Positions 28,529 through 34,678 of a stretch of 38,006 nucleotides of DNA are shown here, piece after piece. A program made the translations under genes and the position numbers. Location of the stretch: positions 1 through 38,006 of the forward strand of contig CANHVO010000020.1 in NCBI GenBank assembly GCA_947463915.1, given 5' to 3'. Within the stretch, counting starts at the first letter, position 1. The number at the start of each line of letters is the position of its first letter. The DNA comes from Planctomycetaceae bacterium (lineage in GTDB: Bacteria > Planctomycetota > Planctomycetia > Pirellulales > Pirellulaceae). Under the pieces are notes generated by a model. That model was not told the origin of the DNA, made no database searches, and saw only the letters and a list, made by a program, of their open reading frames with translations.

Positions 28529-29863
28529 ATGAATCACCAGTACCTTTCCCGAATCGAAAACCTACTCGACCCAGCTGGAAATATTCTCTTGAACATGAGC
28601 TATGCTGAGGCAGAACAGCGAGTTCTTTCGGGCGATGCCAAGCAAGTTGACGAGATTGATGGTCAGTTTGCCATCATGGTTGCCAGCGGGAAAACCGTTC
28701 GTATGGCCAGGTCCATCGGACGCCCTCTCCGCTATTTTTTGGCAAAGCTAGTCGATGGCCCTTGTTTGATCGTCGCCGAACGCATGGATGAAATAGTTGG
28801 GCGCCTAACCGAAATGGGAATTGCCGATCAATTCCATCCTTCCTACACCCGAATGGTCCCCGCTCACCATGTGGTTCAAATCGAACTGCTGGGATGCCCT
28901 GATCCCAACCCAAGATATGTGCGATTCTTTGAGCCACAACGCAACTCATTGCCAGCCGACCTGAATGTGATCGGGGAACAGTATGTTGCCCGACTTTCGC
29001 AAGAGTGCGATCGCTGGCTCGATACCATTCCGGCTTCCGAACCAATTGGAGTTCTGTTCTCCGGTGGCATCGACTCGGGGGCGGTTCTGATCGCGATCTA
29101 TGACCGACTGCTTAAACGTGGCGAGTCACCCTCCAGACTCAAAGCATTTACGCTTCGAATCGACCACTCCGAAGGTGACGCTGCTCAGGCGCAGGAGTTT
29201 GTCCGCAAATGCCGCATGGAAGAGTTGCTTGAGATCGTTGAATGCAACAGCGATGCATTGGACTGGCGTGAAACAGTCCATGTACTAGAGGACTACAAGC
29301 CTCTGGATGTCCAAAGCGGGACGATGGCGATGGCTCTATGCCGCGAACTTCGAAATCGGTATCCAGGGTGGAAGTATCTCGCCGACGGCGACGGTGGCGA
29401 CGAAAACCTCAAGGACTATCCAATCGAGGAGAATCCCGAACTGACCATTCGCAGCGTACTCAACAACCTCATGCTGTATCAAGAAGGTTGGGGAGTACAT
29501 GCAATCAAGCATTCGTTGACCTACAGCGGAGGCCAAAGCCGTGGTCACATTCGAACCAGCGCTCCGGCAGCCCATTTCGGTTTCACCGGATTCAGTCCCT
29601 TTGCATTGCCACGCGTGATCGAAGTGGCCGAAGCTATTCCGTTTATCGAATTGACGGATTGGGATCACCGCAAACTATACGATCTCAAAGGGGAAGTCAT
29701 TCGTCGCGGTATTCAATCGGTATGCAACATCGAAATGCCGATCTTCGAGAAGCGTCGATTCCAGCACGGCGCGATTGACAAGGTTCGATTCGCGGAACTG
29801 TTCCCCAAGGACGAGGCCGAATACCGATTCGAGTTTCTGAGTGCTTATCAGCCTACGCGTTAG
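28529..29863 (+). CDS. Asparagine synthase-like ATP-dependent ligase without the N-terminal Cys
   Basis: A 444-residue protein. Residues 1-130 resemble a worn class II glutamine-amidotransferase fold (IDGQFAIM, GRPLRYFLAK, MVPAHHVVQIE), but the essential Cys at position 2 is Asn, so it cannot use glutamine in the normal way. The ATP-binding synthetase half is intact: SGGIDSGAVL from 178, and DGDGGDENLKDYP at 286-298. This arrangement is shared with amide-forming relatives of AsnB such as beta-lactam synthetase and the ligases of lasso peptide pathways, where the amino donor is another molecule. It leads a cluster with a radical SAM protein and a halogenase-like oxidoreductase, so a small-molecule or peptide modification is likely. 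The product is unknown. Confidence 0.82.
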   Translation: MNHQYLSRIENLLDPAGNILLNMSYAEAEQRVLSGDAKQVDEIDGQFAIMVASGKTVRMARSIGRPLRYFLAKLVDGPCLIVAERMDEIVGRLTEMGIADQFHPSYTRMVPAHHVVQIELLGCPDPNPRYVRFFEPQRNSLPADLNVIGEQYVARLSQECDRWLDTIPASEPIGVLFSGGIDSGAVLIAIYDRLLKRGESPSRLKAFTLRIDHSEGDAAQAQEFVRKCRMEELLEIVECNSDALDWRETVHVLEDYKPLDVQSGTMAMALCRELRNRYPGWKYLADGDGGDENLKDYPIEENPELTIRSVLNNLMLYQEGWGVHAIKHSLTYSGGQSRGHIRTSAPAAHFGFTGFSPFALPRVIEVAEAIPFIELTDWDHRKLYDLKGEVIRRGIQSVCNIEMPIFEKRRFQHGAIDKVRFAELFPKDEAEYRFEFLSAYQPTR

Positions 29864-29916
29864 TGGGAACGATTGGTTTTGTACTAAATGTTTTTCTCCC
29901 CCTCGCCCCTTATCGG

Positions 29917-30030
29917 CAACTCTGCGAAAACTTACTCTAGCGAAACTCGTCGAGAGTTTCAATCGTCTAGGCGATGAGGCTGCAGCCGAAAGTCTTGACG
30001 ACTTTCGCTACACAAAAGCCTGTTTTCAAA
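29917..30030 (-). repeat. Family A element, copy 5, nearly full length
   Basis: From GCAACTCTGCG (29917) through the core at 29937-30011 to CACAAAAGCCTGTTTTC (30011-30027) it aligns along its length with the reverse complement of the element at 1234-1364, with the right end missing. It ends ten bases before the radical SAM start codon, so the leader of that gene is repeat-derived. Confidence 0.7.
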
Positions 30031-30039
30031 GCGGGAGCC

Positions 30040-31020
30040 ATGAAACCTGACAAATTAGCAATCGAATTGCTCCGGCCCGAAATCAATCGCCCTTCCGCGT
30101 GGTCGATTCCCAAAGTCCTTCGCGCGCTTGAACCGGACGGGATCGGCGGCGAAGTTGACACGACTACCGTCTTTTTGACCGGAGCAGAATGCCCGTTCCG
30201 CTGTTCGATGTGCGACCTATGGCAATACACATCCCTGGGCAACACACCGGTCGGTGCCATTCCTTTTCAATTGGCTCAAGTGCTGAAACCGGAGAGTTCG
30301 AATGGTAGACGCTGGCTCAAACTCTACAACGCCAGCAACTTTTTCGATCCCCGATCGATTCCGACCGAAGACTTGAATGCGATTGCCGAACACTGCTCTC
30401 CATTTGAACGTGTCATCGTCGAGAACCATCCACGTTTTTGTGACGATCGAATGGCGGCATTTTCGAAGGCTATTCCCGGTCAGCTTGAGGTTGCCATGGG
30501 ACTAGAATCGATCCATCCAAATGCGATCGAAATCATGAATAAGAGGATGACTCTCGCAGACTTTGATCGAGCTGTCGCGAAATGCCAATGCCTGAATATT
30601 GACGTTCGTGTCTTTGTCTTGCTCCATCCACCCGGAGTTGACCAAAAGGAGGCTGTTGAGTGGACTCGGAATACGGTCGCCTACGCGATGGAACGGCGCG
30701 TTCGACACGTCAGCATTATCCCCGTGCGAGCAGGCAATGGTTGGATCGATCGACTGATCGATACGGAGGGGTATCAATTGCCAACAGTATCGATGATTCG
30801 CGAGCTCTACAAAACATTCAGCCGAAGTGAAATTTCTTCGGTTGGAGTTTCGTCCGCAGGGAGCACCACCATCGAGTTCGATCTTTGGGATTATGAAAAC
30901 TGGCAAGGTGGCTGCCCTGAATGCCGTGATTCGCTGGTAAAACATATTGCCCTATGCAATCGCGAACAAAGAATACTTCCGCAAGATGAAACGGAAATCC
31001 GCTGTGAATGCACTGTATGA
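30040..31020 (+). CDS. Radical SAM enzyme, Elp3/archaeosine-synthase-like group
   Basis: A 326-residue radical S-adenosylmethionine protein. The cluster motif is CxxxCxxC (C51, C55, C58 in FLTGAECPFRCSMCDLW). Downstream are KLYNASNFFDPRSIP, VIVENHPRF and EVAMGLES, in the order seen in the Elp3-like radical SAM group that includes the archaeosine synthase component RaSEA; that link is by pattern only. Several Cys near the C-terminus (GGCPECRD, CNRE, CECTV) might bind a second cluster or metal. The start MKPDKLAIELL (30040) has GGGAG just upstream; the open frame reaches further up into the repeat but those residues are not real. It overlaps the oxidoreductase frame at its 3' end. Confidence 0.86.
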   Translation: MKPDKLAIELLRPEINRPSAWSIPKVLRALEPDGIGGEVDTTTVFLTGAECPFRCSMCDLWQYTSLGNTPVGAIPFQLAQVLKPESSNGRRWLKLYNASNFFDPRSIPTEDLNAIAEHCSPFERVIVENHPRFCDDRMAAFSKAIPGQLEVAMGLESIHPNAIEIMNKRMTLADFDRAVAKCQCLNIDVRVFVLLHPPGVDQKEAVEWTRNTVAYAMERRVRHVSIIPVRAGNGWIDRLIDTEGYQLPTVSMIRELYKTFSRSEISSVGVSSAGSTTIEFDLWDYENWQGGCPECRDSLVKHIALCNREQRILPQDETEIRCECTV

Positions 31021-32527
31021 TGCCGTCATCGTTGGCTCTGGGTTCGCTGGATCGATCCTCGGTAAGATACTTGCCAAGAACGGTTGGCGCGTTGCGATCA
31101 TTGACCGCGCAAAGCATCCTCGATTCGCGATCGGCGAGTCGTCAACTCCCACTGCTGATTTCCTATTGGCTTACTTAGCCGATCGATGGCAAATGCCTGA
31201 GTTGCGTCCATTGGCAGCGTGGGGGACATGGAAGGAAACGTATCCGGAGATAACCTGCGGAAAGAAGCGAGGCTTCACGTACTTCGCTCATTCACCAGAT
31301 CGCCCTTTTCACAATGGCCCTGATCACTCGACCTCGCTGATGGTGGCCGCGTCGCAAACGGACTACTGGAGCGATACGCAGTGGCTTCGAAGCGATGTCG
31401 ATCTGTTCTTCGCCCGTCAATCCGTTGCCAGCGGATGCGAACTTCTTGAAAATGCTGGCATCGAAAATTGTTGCCGCGATGATTCCATTTGGCGCATTCG
31501 AATCATGAATCGCGACAACGAAAAAAACACGCGAGACATAAAAGCGCGTTGGCTGATCGATGCTGGCGGAGGTGGAGACTTCTCAGAGCGATGGCTTGGT
31601 AATCAACGCGACGACGATTGGATGAAGACGCAAACCGCGTCGGTGTTCGGGCATTTCACTGGGGTGAAAGGCTTCGCTGATCCGTTAGATCCAACGTCAC
31701 CTATCGATTCAGCATCGGGATTCTGCGCCGATGATTCCGCGCAACACCATGTCGTTCCGAACGGATGGATGTGGATGCTGCGATTTGATTCGGGCGTGAC
31801 AAGCGTCGGTATCGTCCAGCCGACGAAGTTCTGGAAGCCAATCGGGACGGTGAGTGAAGGGCAACAAATGTGGAATCGCTGGGTTGAACAGTATCCATCG
31901 ATAAAGGACCTGTTGTCTCATGCGAACCCCGTGGAAGCTGGCAACGGGGCATTGAAATGGAGCGACCGATTGAGTCGATGCCGAAAGCGGGCTGTTGGGG
32001 ACGGATGGATACAATTGCCGACCGCATACGGGTTCGTCGATCCACTGCACAGTACTGGCATTGCACACGCGCTGAGCGGAGTACTTCGAATTGCGGAGCT
32101 TCTCGTTGCAGACGGTTCCGTCGACTCAAGCGACTCCGCGAGGTGGTTAACCTATGATAACCAGCTGCGACGCGAAATCGAATGGATCGATTTGCTCGTG
32201 GGCGGTTGCTACCTCGCCCTCCCGTCTTTTCCAACTTTCTGCGCCTTTGCAGCTTGGTATTTCGTAGCGGCGATCCACTTTGAACGGGTGATGGCACTTG
32301 ATCCGAGTCGCTGGAGCAACGGCTATCTGTCCTGTGAAATCAATCTGATGCAGGAAAGAACATTGCAGTCTTACTGCCAACTATTGAGCCAAAACGAAGA
32401 CAGCAACATCGAATCGATACGGCGAGCAATCGACCCCTGGAACGATGTGGGACTACTCACGCCGGTGCGGGGACAACGGATACCGCATACGGCACCGCCA
32501 AAGTACAGCGTGGGGCTTAAGGTGTAA
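30986..32527 (+). CDS. FAD-dependent oxidoreductase of the tryptophan-halogenase superfamily
   Basis: A 513-residue flavoprotein. The N-terminal FAD motif VIVGSGFAGSILGKIL starts near residue 14; FAIGESSTPTADFLL matches the halogenase pattern after the first beta-alpha-beta unit; GWMWMLRFD is a worn form of the halogenase WxWxIP motif; and FVDPLHSTGIAHALSGV matches the FAD-contact segment. A Lys-containing TWKETYPEITCGKKRGF lies where halogenases carry the catalytic Lys, but assignment by eye is uncertain. It may halogenate, hydroxylate or oxidise the cluster's intermediate. The start at 30986 (MKRKSAVNALYDAVIV) overlaps the radical SAM gene by 35 bases; 30947 is an alternative. The tight overlap indicates a shared pathway. 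Confidence 0.82.
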   Translation: MKRKSAVNALYDAVIVGSGFAGSILGKILAKNGWRVAIIDRAKHPRFAIGESSTPTADFLLAYLADRWQMPELRPLAAWGTWKETYPEITCGKKRGFTYFAHSPDRPFHNGPDHSTSLMVAASQTDYWSDTQWLRSDVDLFFARQSVASGCELLENAGIENCCRDDSIWRIRIMNRDNEKNTRDIKARWLIDAGGGGDFSERWLGNQRDDDWMKTQTASVFGHFTGVKGFADPLDPTSPIDSASGFCADDSAQHHVVPNGWMWMLRFDSGVTSVGIVQPTKFWKPIGTVSEGQQMWNRWVEQYPSIKDLLSHANPVEAGNGALKWSDRLSRCRKRAVGDGWIQLPTAYGFVDPLHSTGIAHALSGVLRIAELLVADGSVDSSDSARWLTYDNQLRREIEWIDLLVGGCYLALPSFPTFCAFAAWYFVAAIHFERVMALDPSRWSNGYLSCEINLMQERTLQSYCQLLSQNEDSNIESIRRAIDPWNDVGLLTPVRGQRIPHTAPPKYSVGLKV

Positions 32528-32899: not shown

Positions 32900-34678
32900 C
32901 TATTCTTTTGCTGCTGGTTCTTTTTCCTTGTCACAGGCTCCGTCGCCACACGCTGATTTGCAGTCTTTGCCGCATGCTTCCAACGCGACTCGCTTGAAGA
33001 CGAACGTTCCGCCAATTGGAGACGTGGGCTCTCCATAGAAGAACACGAACTTTGCAGTGTCATCCTTCAAGAACTCGACAGTCGCTCCGAAGCCCTGTAC
33101 GCCTTCGTCGATCGTAACTAGATCAAGTTTGCCATCATGTGCTTGAATGGCTTGCCACTTCGAAGAGCCACCTGCGATCATCTGTGCAGCTTGCTCATCA
33201 CTGCCCGTTACAGCAGAGAGAATGGCACCGAACACGCCTTTGTCAGATTGAGCTTCGCCCTCAGGCTTGGCTGATTTCGTTCCCTTTGGACCTTTGACAA
33301 GCATTCCGTCTGGAGCAAACTCCATGTGAGCGAAACCGCTTTGAATGTAATTGGCCATCGATCCTGGATCTTGGTCCTTGGTGTCAACTTTCTCTGACGT
33401 GATTTCCCAAGTTCCATAAATGTTTTTGCCTAACAAAGCCAGCGCCTCGCGGGATAGCTTTTCATCTTCCGACTCGGCTGGCGCATCTTTGCGTGGCACA
33501 AGGACGGCAACGTGCGAGCGGTCTTCGTTCATCATGTAGTGCCAATTGCGAGTTGGATCGAAACCGATAGCAACATGCTTGCAACCGCCAGCAACCTTGG
33601 CTGTTCCCACAAACCCGAGATACTCTCCCGCTTGACTAAATCGCTTGATGTGACCGATGCTGGATTCAGCTGTCAAGATTTCGCCGTTGCTGCAGCATCG
33701 AACATTCATCGGGTTACAGCAGGAACCAAATCCCTCGTCGTCGTTGCGAGAACGTTTTCCCCAGCCATTGAGTCGCTTGCCATCACGGTCATAGAAGCCA
33801 ACCTGAAACTTGGTGTTCTCAGCTATCAGAAGATTCTCACCATCGGTCTGAATGTCCAATTGCCCGCAGCAACCACCGACTCCATCCATGATCGACTTGG
33901 CGTTTTCCAAGTTATGATCGAGCCGCCAAATGGCGTAACCATAACCGGTCAACATCGGGCAAGAAACAAAGACATCATCTTCTGTGGCAGCTAGACCAGT
34001 CGCATTGGCCCATCTGGCCATGGAGCCCGATTGATCGAATGCCTGCGCCATATTGGCGGCCGCATCTTCAAACTGCTTCTTTGAAACATTGAGCAATTTC
34101 AGTCGACGTTCGCGACGAGTCTTTGCCTTTTCCTCTTCGTCTTCCGGAACGATCTCCAGCTTGGCAATCTGCTCTTCCAAACGATCGAGCTGTGTCTTGG
34201 CAGCTTTCGTTTGTTCCTGGATTCGCTTTTCGTTTTCTTTCTTCAGTGCCGCGAGAGCTTCTTCTTGGTTGCCGATGTTTGGCGCGTCGATCTCTAGCTC
34301 GACTTTGCCTTCGGATGTCATTTTCGCAACCTTGCCCGAGCCTGCAACGAAAAGCTTTCCATCTGGCGAGAAGTTCAAGGCTTGCGGTATGAACTTCAAA
34401 GGAAACGAGTGAAGCATCTCACCCTCTCCGCTATAAACCATCACCAAACCTTTATCCGCACCTGTGCCGGCGCAACACATCCAGAGGTTGTTGTCTGGGC
34501 CGACGCAAAAAGTCTCCAATTTGACTGGCCGACCTTCTACCATGGGAGCAATGCTTCGAGCCTGCTTGTGAGTCGCTTCGTTGTTGGCTGCATTGACGGC
34601 CGCCATGGGTGAGACCAATCCCCAAGTGAGGAGGGTCGCTAAGAAAAACGTTCTTGAAGAAAGGAAGCGAAGACGCAT
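32900..34678 (-). CDS. Secreted Cys-rich beta-propeller protein with an inserted coiled coil
   Basis: A precursor of 592 residues with a signal peptide (cleavage near 30, AVNAA). The fold is suggested by NHL/propeller-like blades (PQALNFSPDGKLFVAGSG, IQTDGENLLIAENTKF, RCCSNGEILTAESS). A long charged coiled coil (about 137-212) interrupts it. Striking are the neighbouring cysteine pairs at 68-69, 270-271, 320-321 and 328-329 (MCCAG, GGCCGQ, GSCCNP, VRCCSN), plus single Cys at 58, 240 and 366, and a spaced C-terminal set at 569, 573, 577 and 582 (CGKDCKSACGDGACD). The pairs sit at blade edges and could bind metal or cross-link the propeller. A C-terminal part (430-560) looks like a separate beta domain. 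Ends in a terminator at 32831-32872. Confidence 0.75.
   Translation of the reverse strand: MRLRFLSSRTFFLATLLTWGLVSPMAAVNAANNEATHKQARSIAPMVEGRPVKLETFCVGPDNNLWMCCAGTGADKGLVMVYSGEGEMLHSFPLKFIPQALNFSPDGKLFVAGSGKVAKMTSEGKVELEIDAPNIGNQEEALAALKKENEKRIQEQTKAAKTQLDRLEEQIAKLEIVPEDEEEKAKTRRERRLKLLNVSKKQFEDAAANMAQAFDQSGSMARWANATGLAATEDDVFVSCPMLTGYGYAIWRLDHNLENAKSIMDGVGGCCGQLDIQTDGENLLIAENTKFQVGFYDRDGKRLNGWGKRSRNDDEGFGSCCNPMNVRCCSNGEILTAESSIGHIKRFSQAGEYLGFVGTAKVAGGCKHVAIGFDPTRNWHYMMNEDRSHVAVLVPRKDAPAESEDEKLSREALALLGKNIYGTWEITSEKVDTKDQDPGSMANYIQSGFAHMEFAPDGMLVKGPKGTKSAKPEGEAQSDKGVFGAILSAVTGSDEQAAQMIAGGSSKWQAIQAHDGKLDLVTIDEGVQGFGATVEFLKDDTAKFVFFYGEPTSPIGGTFVFKRVALEACGKDCKSACGDGACDKEKEPAAKE

Follow-up and report, generated by a model that had tools for sequence, protein, structure and literature searches.

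Co-occurrence of an asparagine-synthase-like ligase, a radical SAM protein and a halogenase-like flavoprotein in Planctomycetota and other bacterial phyla

The locus

The DNA considered here is a 38,006-nucleotide stretch from a Planctomycetaceae bacterium (assembly GCA_947463915.1, contig CANHVO010000020.1, positions 1 to 38,006), which we call the window, and our subject is a row of three genes within it. They encode an asparagine-synthase-like ligase (LIG), a radical S-adenosylmethionine (SAM) protein (RSAM) and a halogenase-like protein dependent on flavin adenine dinucleotide (FAD) (HAL). An original prediction, made from the sequence alone, described three enzymes of a tailoring type encoded in a row, the last two genes overlapping by 35 bases; the open reading frames (ORFs) and family matches agree on both counts. 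The features, all on the forward strand, are as follows.

28529..29863, +: LIG, asparagine-synthase-like ATP-dependent ligase without the glutaminase-domain front, 444 residues (PF00733, 39-member alignment, comparison with AsnB-type proteins)
29060..29077, +: PP-loop SGGIDS of LIG, residues 178-183, invariant at five of six positions in the alignment
29402..29419, +: LIG residues 292-297, with E292 and Y297 both invariant (39/39), at the spacing of a Glu-Tyr dyad
29974..31020, +: RSAM, radical SAM protein, 348 residues, with RaSEA (TIGR01210) as nearest curated family
30190..30213, +: CxxxCxxC cluster motif of RSAM (C73, C77, C80), invariant (66/66)
30986..32527, +: HAL, FAD-dependent halogenase-like protein of PltM/CtcP type, 513 residues from ATG (profile against PDB)
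30986..31020, +: overlap of the RSAM end and HAL start, 35 bases (ORF coordinates)
31265..31267, +: K94 of HAL, counterpart of the catalytic Lys87 of PltM, invariant (43/43)

Purifying selection acts on all three genes, with ratios of nonsynonymous to synonymous substitution (dN/dS) against the closest relative, locus L002, of 0.056 for LIG, 0.18 for RSAM and 0.12 for HAL. Nothing in L002 corresponds to the first ~20 residues of RSAM, so the start of this protein is uncertain; for HAL, a TTG at 30947 is likewise open as an alternative start. Residue counts given here refer to alignments A1-A3, which hold 39 LIG, 66 RSAM and 43 HAL rows chosen as non-redundant from the 82, 85 and 63 available, with the window included.

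Co-occurrence of the three genes

Across genomes the three enzymes are retained or lost together, each with its own active-site signature, and it is strongly supported that they are near-obligate partners, of which HAL alone is sometimes absent. A scan for RSAM relatives, with one genome per species, provided the loci studied here, the best 80 of 92 relatives; most are metagenome bins, and their organism names are to be taken with care. In 58 of the 80 a single stretch carries LIG, RSAM and HAL, and these loci are spread over five phyla: 27 Acidobacteriota, 25 Gemmatimonadota, 4 Planctomycetota, one Bacteroidota (Dyadobacter) and one Myxococcota (a deltaproteobacterial bin). For the 22 loci with a partial trio, 20 genomes were searched, those of L027 and L031 being left out, and LIG was found in 20/20 and HAL in 15/20.

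Two further samples were counted genome by genome. In a phylum sample of 294 genomes, RSAM was found in 13 (E < 1e-50, 15 of the 28 matches being weaker and uncounted), LIG in 13 and HAL in 15 (E < 1e-30); an identical 13 genomes carry all three, the additional HAL matches being G266 and G125. A class sample of 297 genomes, 21 of which also belong to the phylum sample, gave 101 with RSAM, 102 with LIG and 99 with HAL (E < 1e-40, a threshold that dropped 12 of the 111 genomes matching at 1e-15, their best matches being 6e-28 or worse). All three genes are present in 95 class genomes and none in 192, while LIG and RSAM occur together in 100 of the 103 having either one; HAL occurs alone in G266 and G581. 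The original prediction had proposed a functional cluster, an idea open to refutation by non-conservation in relatives, and both the 58 of 80 loci and the near-perfect co-occurrence in the class genomes bear it out.

Several observations weigh against treating the three as one invariable set. Five class genomes have LIG and RSAM without HAL: G389 and four genomes of family f106 (G324, G334, G361 and G408), the LIG of these four being diverged, at 43-46% identity. Among the 20 genomes searched for the partial loci, HAL was also not found in 5, of which three are small and acidobacterial. Because of these two groups of five, HAL is not always part of the set. LIG and RSAM are mismatched in three class genomes. 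In G493 the contig stops 9 bases past HAL, at the position that RSAM occupies in its genus-mate G573. The RSAM gene of G494 is near a contig end, yet six genus-mates carry LIG elsewhere and the missing LIG is unexplained, as is the LIG that stands alone in G457. The genomes of the acidobacterial loci L015, L030 and L034 have LIG and RSAM, no HAL at 1e-20, and a downstream gene that looks by eye like a glycine dehydrogenase.

Carriers and non-carriers can be found in one genus, as in g3 (G333 and G376 against G205, G330 and others), g6 (G137 against G024) and g217 (G484 against G463). In g8 the carrier G087 has the genes on three contigs, while the non-carrier G105 is a single-contig genome. 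Separate trees of the three proteins, suggested along with the original prediction, gave path distances over 44 loci that correlate at 0.91-0.93, with no species-tree control on that figure. The LIG tree groups by phylum with few departures. We take the trio to be old and mostly vertical in descent, gained or lost as a set.

Among the 95 class genomes with all three genes, 38 have them all adjacent, 19 have only LIG and RSAM adjacent, 19 only RSAM and HAL, and 19 have none within 3 kb, a count that treats genes on different contigs as apart and is not proof of their separation; G500, with 3.5 kb between RSAM and HAL, falls just beyond the limit. Same-contig distances were rechecked in 16 genomes picked by eye: 15 of these have two or more members of the set separated by over 60 kb of a single contig (the other, G506, has them at 8.6 kb), and the three genes of G497, a single-contig genome, are mutually over 1.6 Mb apart. 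Since co-occurrence persists in genomes whose members are far apart, the link between the three genes is not merely positional.

The three enzymes

The window's LIG matches Asn_synthase (PF00733, E 6.4e-13), and this ATP half is the sole recognised part of the protein in 39/39 members; the scores are far below the cut-offs of all three NCBIfam models matched. The original prediction had the ligase losing the catalytic Cys of its amidotransferase half while keeping the amide-forming half. Both parts stand, as the N-terminal Cys is absent in comparison with two full AsnB-type proteins from the window's own genome, but the loss is far larger than the Cys alone: only 22 LIG residues face the first ~112 residues of those proteins, so that about 90 residues of the glutaminase domain are gone. 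The C-terminal third aligns poorly with the AsnB-type proteins. Compared with AsnB and with asparagine-synthetase-like (AS-like) ligases such as PesC, which converts a carboxylate to a nitrile, LIG lacks most of the glutaminase front but keeps the PP-loop (S-G-G-x-D-S, 39/39) and the Glu-Tyr spacing. The dyad is described in the relevant part of PMC13060819 as conserved in five AS-like enzymes, and a Tyr to Phe change in PesC abolished activity. By our own correspondence, from spacing and the AsnB-type alignment, E292 and Y297 would be the equivalent residues. LIG probably still adenylates a carboxylate, and we infer that it would not use glutamine.

RSAM scores 23.2 bits against Pfam Radical_SAM (PF04055), below the cut-off of 29.5. 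The prediction of an intact CxxxCxxC motif and of a likeness to the archaeosine-type group is upheld: the motif is invariant, and RaSEA is the nearest model, matched by 66/66 members (best E 1.2e-34; for the window protein E 1.4e-21 and 77 bits, short of the curated cut-off of 212.15). MnmL/YtqA is the next nearest model, in 23/66 members. Positions of the K-L-Y-N, E-x-H and G-x-E type are also invariant in the alignment. The extra C-terminal cysteines of the original prediction occur, as pairs, in 58/66; all such pairs are gone in eight (L083, L084, L088, L090, L067, L071, L074 and L078), which makes a second catalytic iron-sulfur cluster at this end unlikely.

Queuine lyase is a radical SAM enzyme and the best match of the RSAM profile in the PDB (6p78), though a weak one, with E 0.0022 over profile positions 45-182. 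It converts queuine to preQ1, as given in an excerpt of PMC7694415, while RaSEA forms archaeosine from preQ0-Lys, after the addition of lysine by ArcS (PMC11298593, in part). The same portion of that source has three named ArcS proteins making no use of ammonium, Asn or Gln, whereas the M. jannaschii ArcS does use them. From their substrates and products we infer that RaSEA and queuine lyase both break a C-N bond, and the kinship suggests a ligase-then-lyase logic here. RSAM differs from RaSEA in being found here in bacteria, in having an asparagine-synthase-like ligase as its gene partner and in scoring below the cut-off. That score, 77 against 212, and the weak queuine lyase match count against firm assignment; C-N cleavage by RSAM is a tentative proposal, to which we give somewhat less than an even chance.

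HAL of the window matches Trp_halogenase (PF04820, E 8.8e-12). Against the PDB, the HAL profile finds PltM (E 2.4e-79, 271 bits) and CtcP (E 1.1e-77, 265 bits) well ahead of CmlS (138 bits), and a single sequence matches PltM and CtcP at E ~1e-44. The alignment with PltM extends into its C-terminal region, which PMC6424973 describes as not found in other halogenases and as likely to help define substrate specificity; the K87A variant of PltM was inactive according to the same source. By position count in the profile alignment, HAL K94 is aligned with this lysine. The motif WxWxIP is characteristic of flavin-dependent halogenases. The original prediction that the FAD motif and most halogenase landmarks are kept holds for the FAD-binding glycines (G17 in 43/43, G22 in 39/43) and the catalytic lysine but not for the full WxWxIP: W261 is invariant, position 263 is W or Y, 265 is L and 266 is mostly R. 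HAL shares with PltM and CtcP the lysine and the extended alignment, and differs from them in its incomplete motif and in being inherited alongside a ligase and a radical SAM enzyme. Besides that motif, a match to the model of the monooxygenase QhpG (NF049967, 54.1 bits against a cut-off of 240) speaks against halogenation; GoxB and LodB models match likewise, and the window protein is below all of these cut-offs. HAL is nonetheless probably a true halogenase, with hydroxylation the less likely activity.

A proposed pathway

LIG, RSAM and HAL very probably share one pathway, and on balance we favour, by a little over an even chance, a biosynthetic pathway to a small, non-ribosomal product. LIG would adenylate a carboxylate with ATP and join it to an amine other than glutamine-derived ammonia, giving an amide. 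RSAM, by way of a 5'-deoxyadenosyl radical, would cut a C-N bond, or rearrange the carbon frame, of the intermediate made by LIG, in the manner of RaSEA or queuine lyase. HAL would halogenate, or less likely hydroxylate, an aromatic ring of the product, using FADH2 and its PltM-type lysine. Common metabolism would supply the other building blocks, because no fourth gene is shared by every locus examined: none was found in the 37 loci compared (20 flanks where LIG or HAL is unlinked, and 17 others), and the neighbours there are lineage-specific only.

The UnbU/UnbV neighbourhood and other readings

Beyond what the original prediction held, the presence of UnbV/ASPIC proteins and UnbU near the trio is a new observation. 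The names UnbV and UnbU are of enediyne origin; "UnbU" is our own label for the proteins seen here, taken from their likeness to RnfD and their position beside UnbV proteins. The trio adjoins UnbV/ASPIC proteins in three phyla, and in two of these also an RnfD-like UnbU. This neighbourhood is the basis for a different reading, in which the secreted UnbV/ASPIC proteins and UnbU would depend on the trio for the modification or supply of a redox cofactor, as quinohemoprotein amine dehydrogenase does on its radical SAM and flavin enzymes. A partial parallel is the maturation of the quinone cofactor by QhpG and QhpD, where a radical SAM enzyme and a halogenase-like flavoprotein likewise serve a redox protein (PMC7876137 in part), and the resemblance of HAL to the QhpG, LodB and GoxB models fits this; HAL is, however, far nearer PltM than CmlS and does not reach the QhpG cut-off.

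Several gene orders favour cofactor maturation. In genome G356 of family f107 (locus L193), co-directional genes run LIG, RSAM, HAL, a TPR/FG-GAP/UnbV_ASPIC protein, a second FG-GAP/UnbV_ASPIC protein and UnbU; L192 has a similar order with one extra ORF after HAL. The UnbU copy of L193 is matched by the UnbU profile and by no Pfam model, with RsxD matching weakly. In the four f106 genomes without HAL, the order is UnbV-UnbU-LIG-RSAM, with LIG directly beside an RnfD/NqrB-like UnbU, and the neighbours are large proteins of a UnbV-like cluster, other proteins of which were examined with Pfam. Among the 28 Gemmatimonadota loci of the RSAM scan, UnbU is within the fetched flank in 11 and UnbV-like proteins are in 16; the latter are also in two acidobacterial loci, and a TPR/FG-GAP/UnbV_ASPIC protein adjoins the Dyadobacter trio.

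In a profile search of 80 class genomes, which were hand-chosen and are not phylogenetically independent, UnbU matched strongly in 15 of the 40 genomes with LIG and in 0 of the 40 without it (Fisher p 1.2e-5, kinship ignored). The profile was built partly from three genomes later searched; without four previously known genomes the counts are 11/36 and 0/40 (p 1e-4, kinship ignored). UnbU is at most 7 kb from LIG or HAL in 8 of the 15, and weak matches were seen in G314 and G404. Against cofactor maturation, the search found no UnbU in 25 of the 40 LIG-positive genomes, that of the window among them. UnbV proteins are moreover common in these phyla, and neighbourhood alone is weak evidence. We consider cofactor maturation distinctly unlikely, and any role for UnbU and UnbV together with the trio unlikely, if less so.

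Together, UnbU and the FG-GAP proteins with UnbV/ASPIC make up a module, which some planctomycetes and Gemmatimonadota have next to the trio (L184-L187, L190-L199), and cytochrome-c554/c7-like proteins, of multihaem type, are encoded near UnbU/UnbV at L194:11083-13905 and L046:8496-10553. The cytochrome-like neighbours suggest electron transfer. A more specific form of the proposed pathway, to which we give a still lower probability, is that the product is a halogenated small molecule made by ligase-then-radical-lyase chemistry and serving a widespread UnbV/ASPIC-UnbU electron-transfer module at the cell surface, in some loci with the multihaem-type cytochromes. An amine donor would be attached and its carbon part then cut off, in place of a glutaminase, and the molecule would be a redox cofactor or substrate of that module. 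No paper treating the function of UnbV or UnbU was found among those listed from one open-licence library, judged by titles and the starts of abstracts.

RNA base modification, about as improbable as cofactor maturation, would have the trio making a hypermodified nucleoside, with RSAM acting like RaSEA on a 7-deazaguanine bound to transfer RNA (tRNA), or on something similar. The models nearest RSAM, RaSEA and then MnmL/YtqA, are both tRNA enzymes by name, scattered genes without a common transporter or regulator would suit a housekeeping substrate, and a thymidylate-kinase-like gene (named by eye) is beside the trio in 11 loci. Yet HAL groups with PltM and CtcP, which act on small phenols, and 192 of the 297 class genomes do without all three genes.

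Tailoring of a ribosomally synthesized and post-translationally modified peptide (RiPP), with the precursor encoded elsewhere, is very unlikely. AS-like and halogenase enzymes do tailor RiPP-type products, as parts of PMC13060819 and PMC12715798 describe. In 37 non-redundant loci, of 62 with complete LIG and RSAM, no conserved ORF of 20-120 residues was found within 3 kb, in keeping with the original prediction that no small precursor peptide is nearby, and no common fourth gene surrounds the unlinked members. We read the small ORFs that do recur as fragments, out of frame or antisense, of neighbouring genes or of cut trio copies, and a local precursor was rejected. Chance neighbours without a common function, for which one might cite the genomes having LIG and RSAM without HAL, are ruled out for practical purposes by co-occurrence that persists in several phyla and, in class genomes, with members more than 60 kb apart.

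Other neighbours and mobility

In the window the trio is flanked by genes for a SIMPL protein, a polysaccharide lyase, a secreted-looking protein without a Pfam match and the ATPase of an ATP-binding cassette transporter, which are found again in L002 and in few other trio loci. The secreted-looking protein (592 residues; window 32903-34678, - strand) is directly downstream of HAL and is syntenic in L002. The 11 loci with the thymidylate-kinase-like gene near the trio are acidobacterial in ten cases and myxococcal in one (L008, L009, L011, L014, L016, L018, L028, L038, L055, L059 and L068), and 7 of them also have a gene that by eye resembles DNA polymerase III delta-prime. In five planctomycete loci where RSAM is unlinked (L037, L050, L051, L056 and L065), a gene lies just upstream with its ORF overlapping that of RSAM; in L051 this gene encodes a member of the CitG family (PF01874). 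Carriage by phages or plasmids was rejected, as no relative of LIG was found in viral contigs with two peptide patterns, or in plasmids at 1e-5.

Significance

Among the papers listed by full-text searches of one open-licence library, judged by titles and the starts of abstracts, we found none describing the trio. As one proposed pathway to a small product, LIG, RSAM and HAL make a well-defined target, with few genes, sharp co-occurrence and some single-contig carriers. The carriers are Planctomycetota, Acidobacteriota, Gemmatimonadota and others, and the product is undescribed in the literature searched. Should HAL indeed halogenate, it could be among the sources of organohalogens in soil and water. 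C-N cleavage by RSAM following the ligase step, if it occurs, would extend the logic of archaeosine synthesis to bacteria. The link to UnbU and UnbV, finally, could give a handle on a pair of proteins for which the literature searched describes no function.

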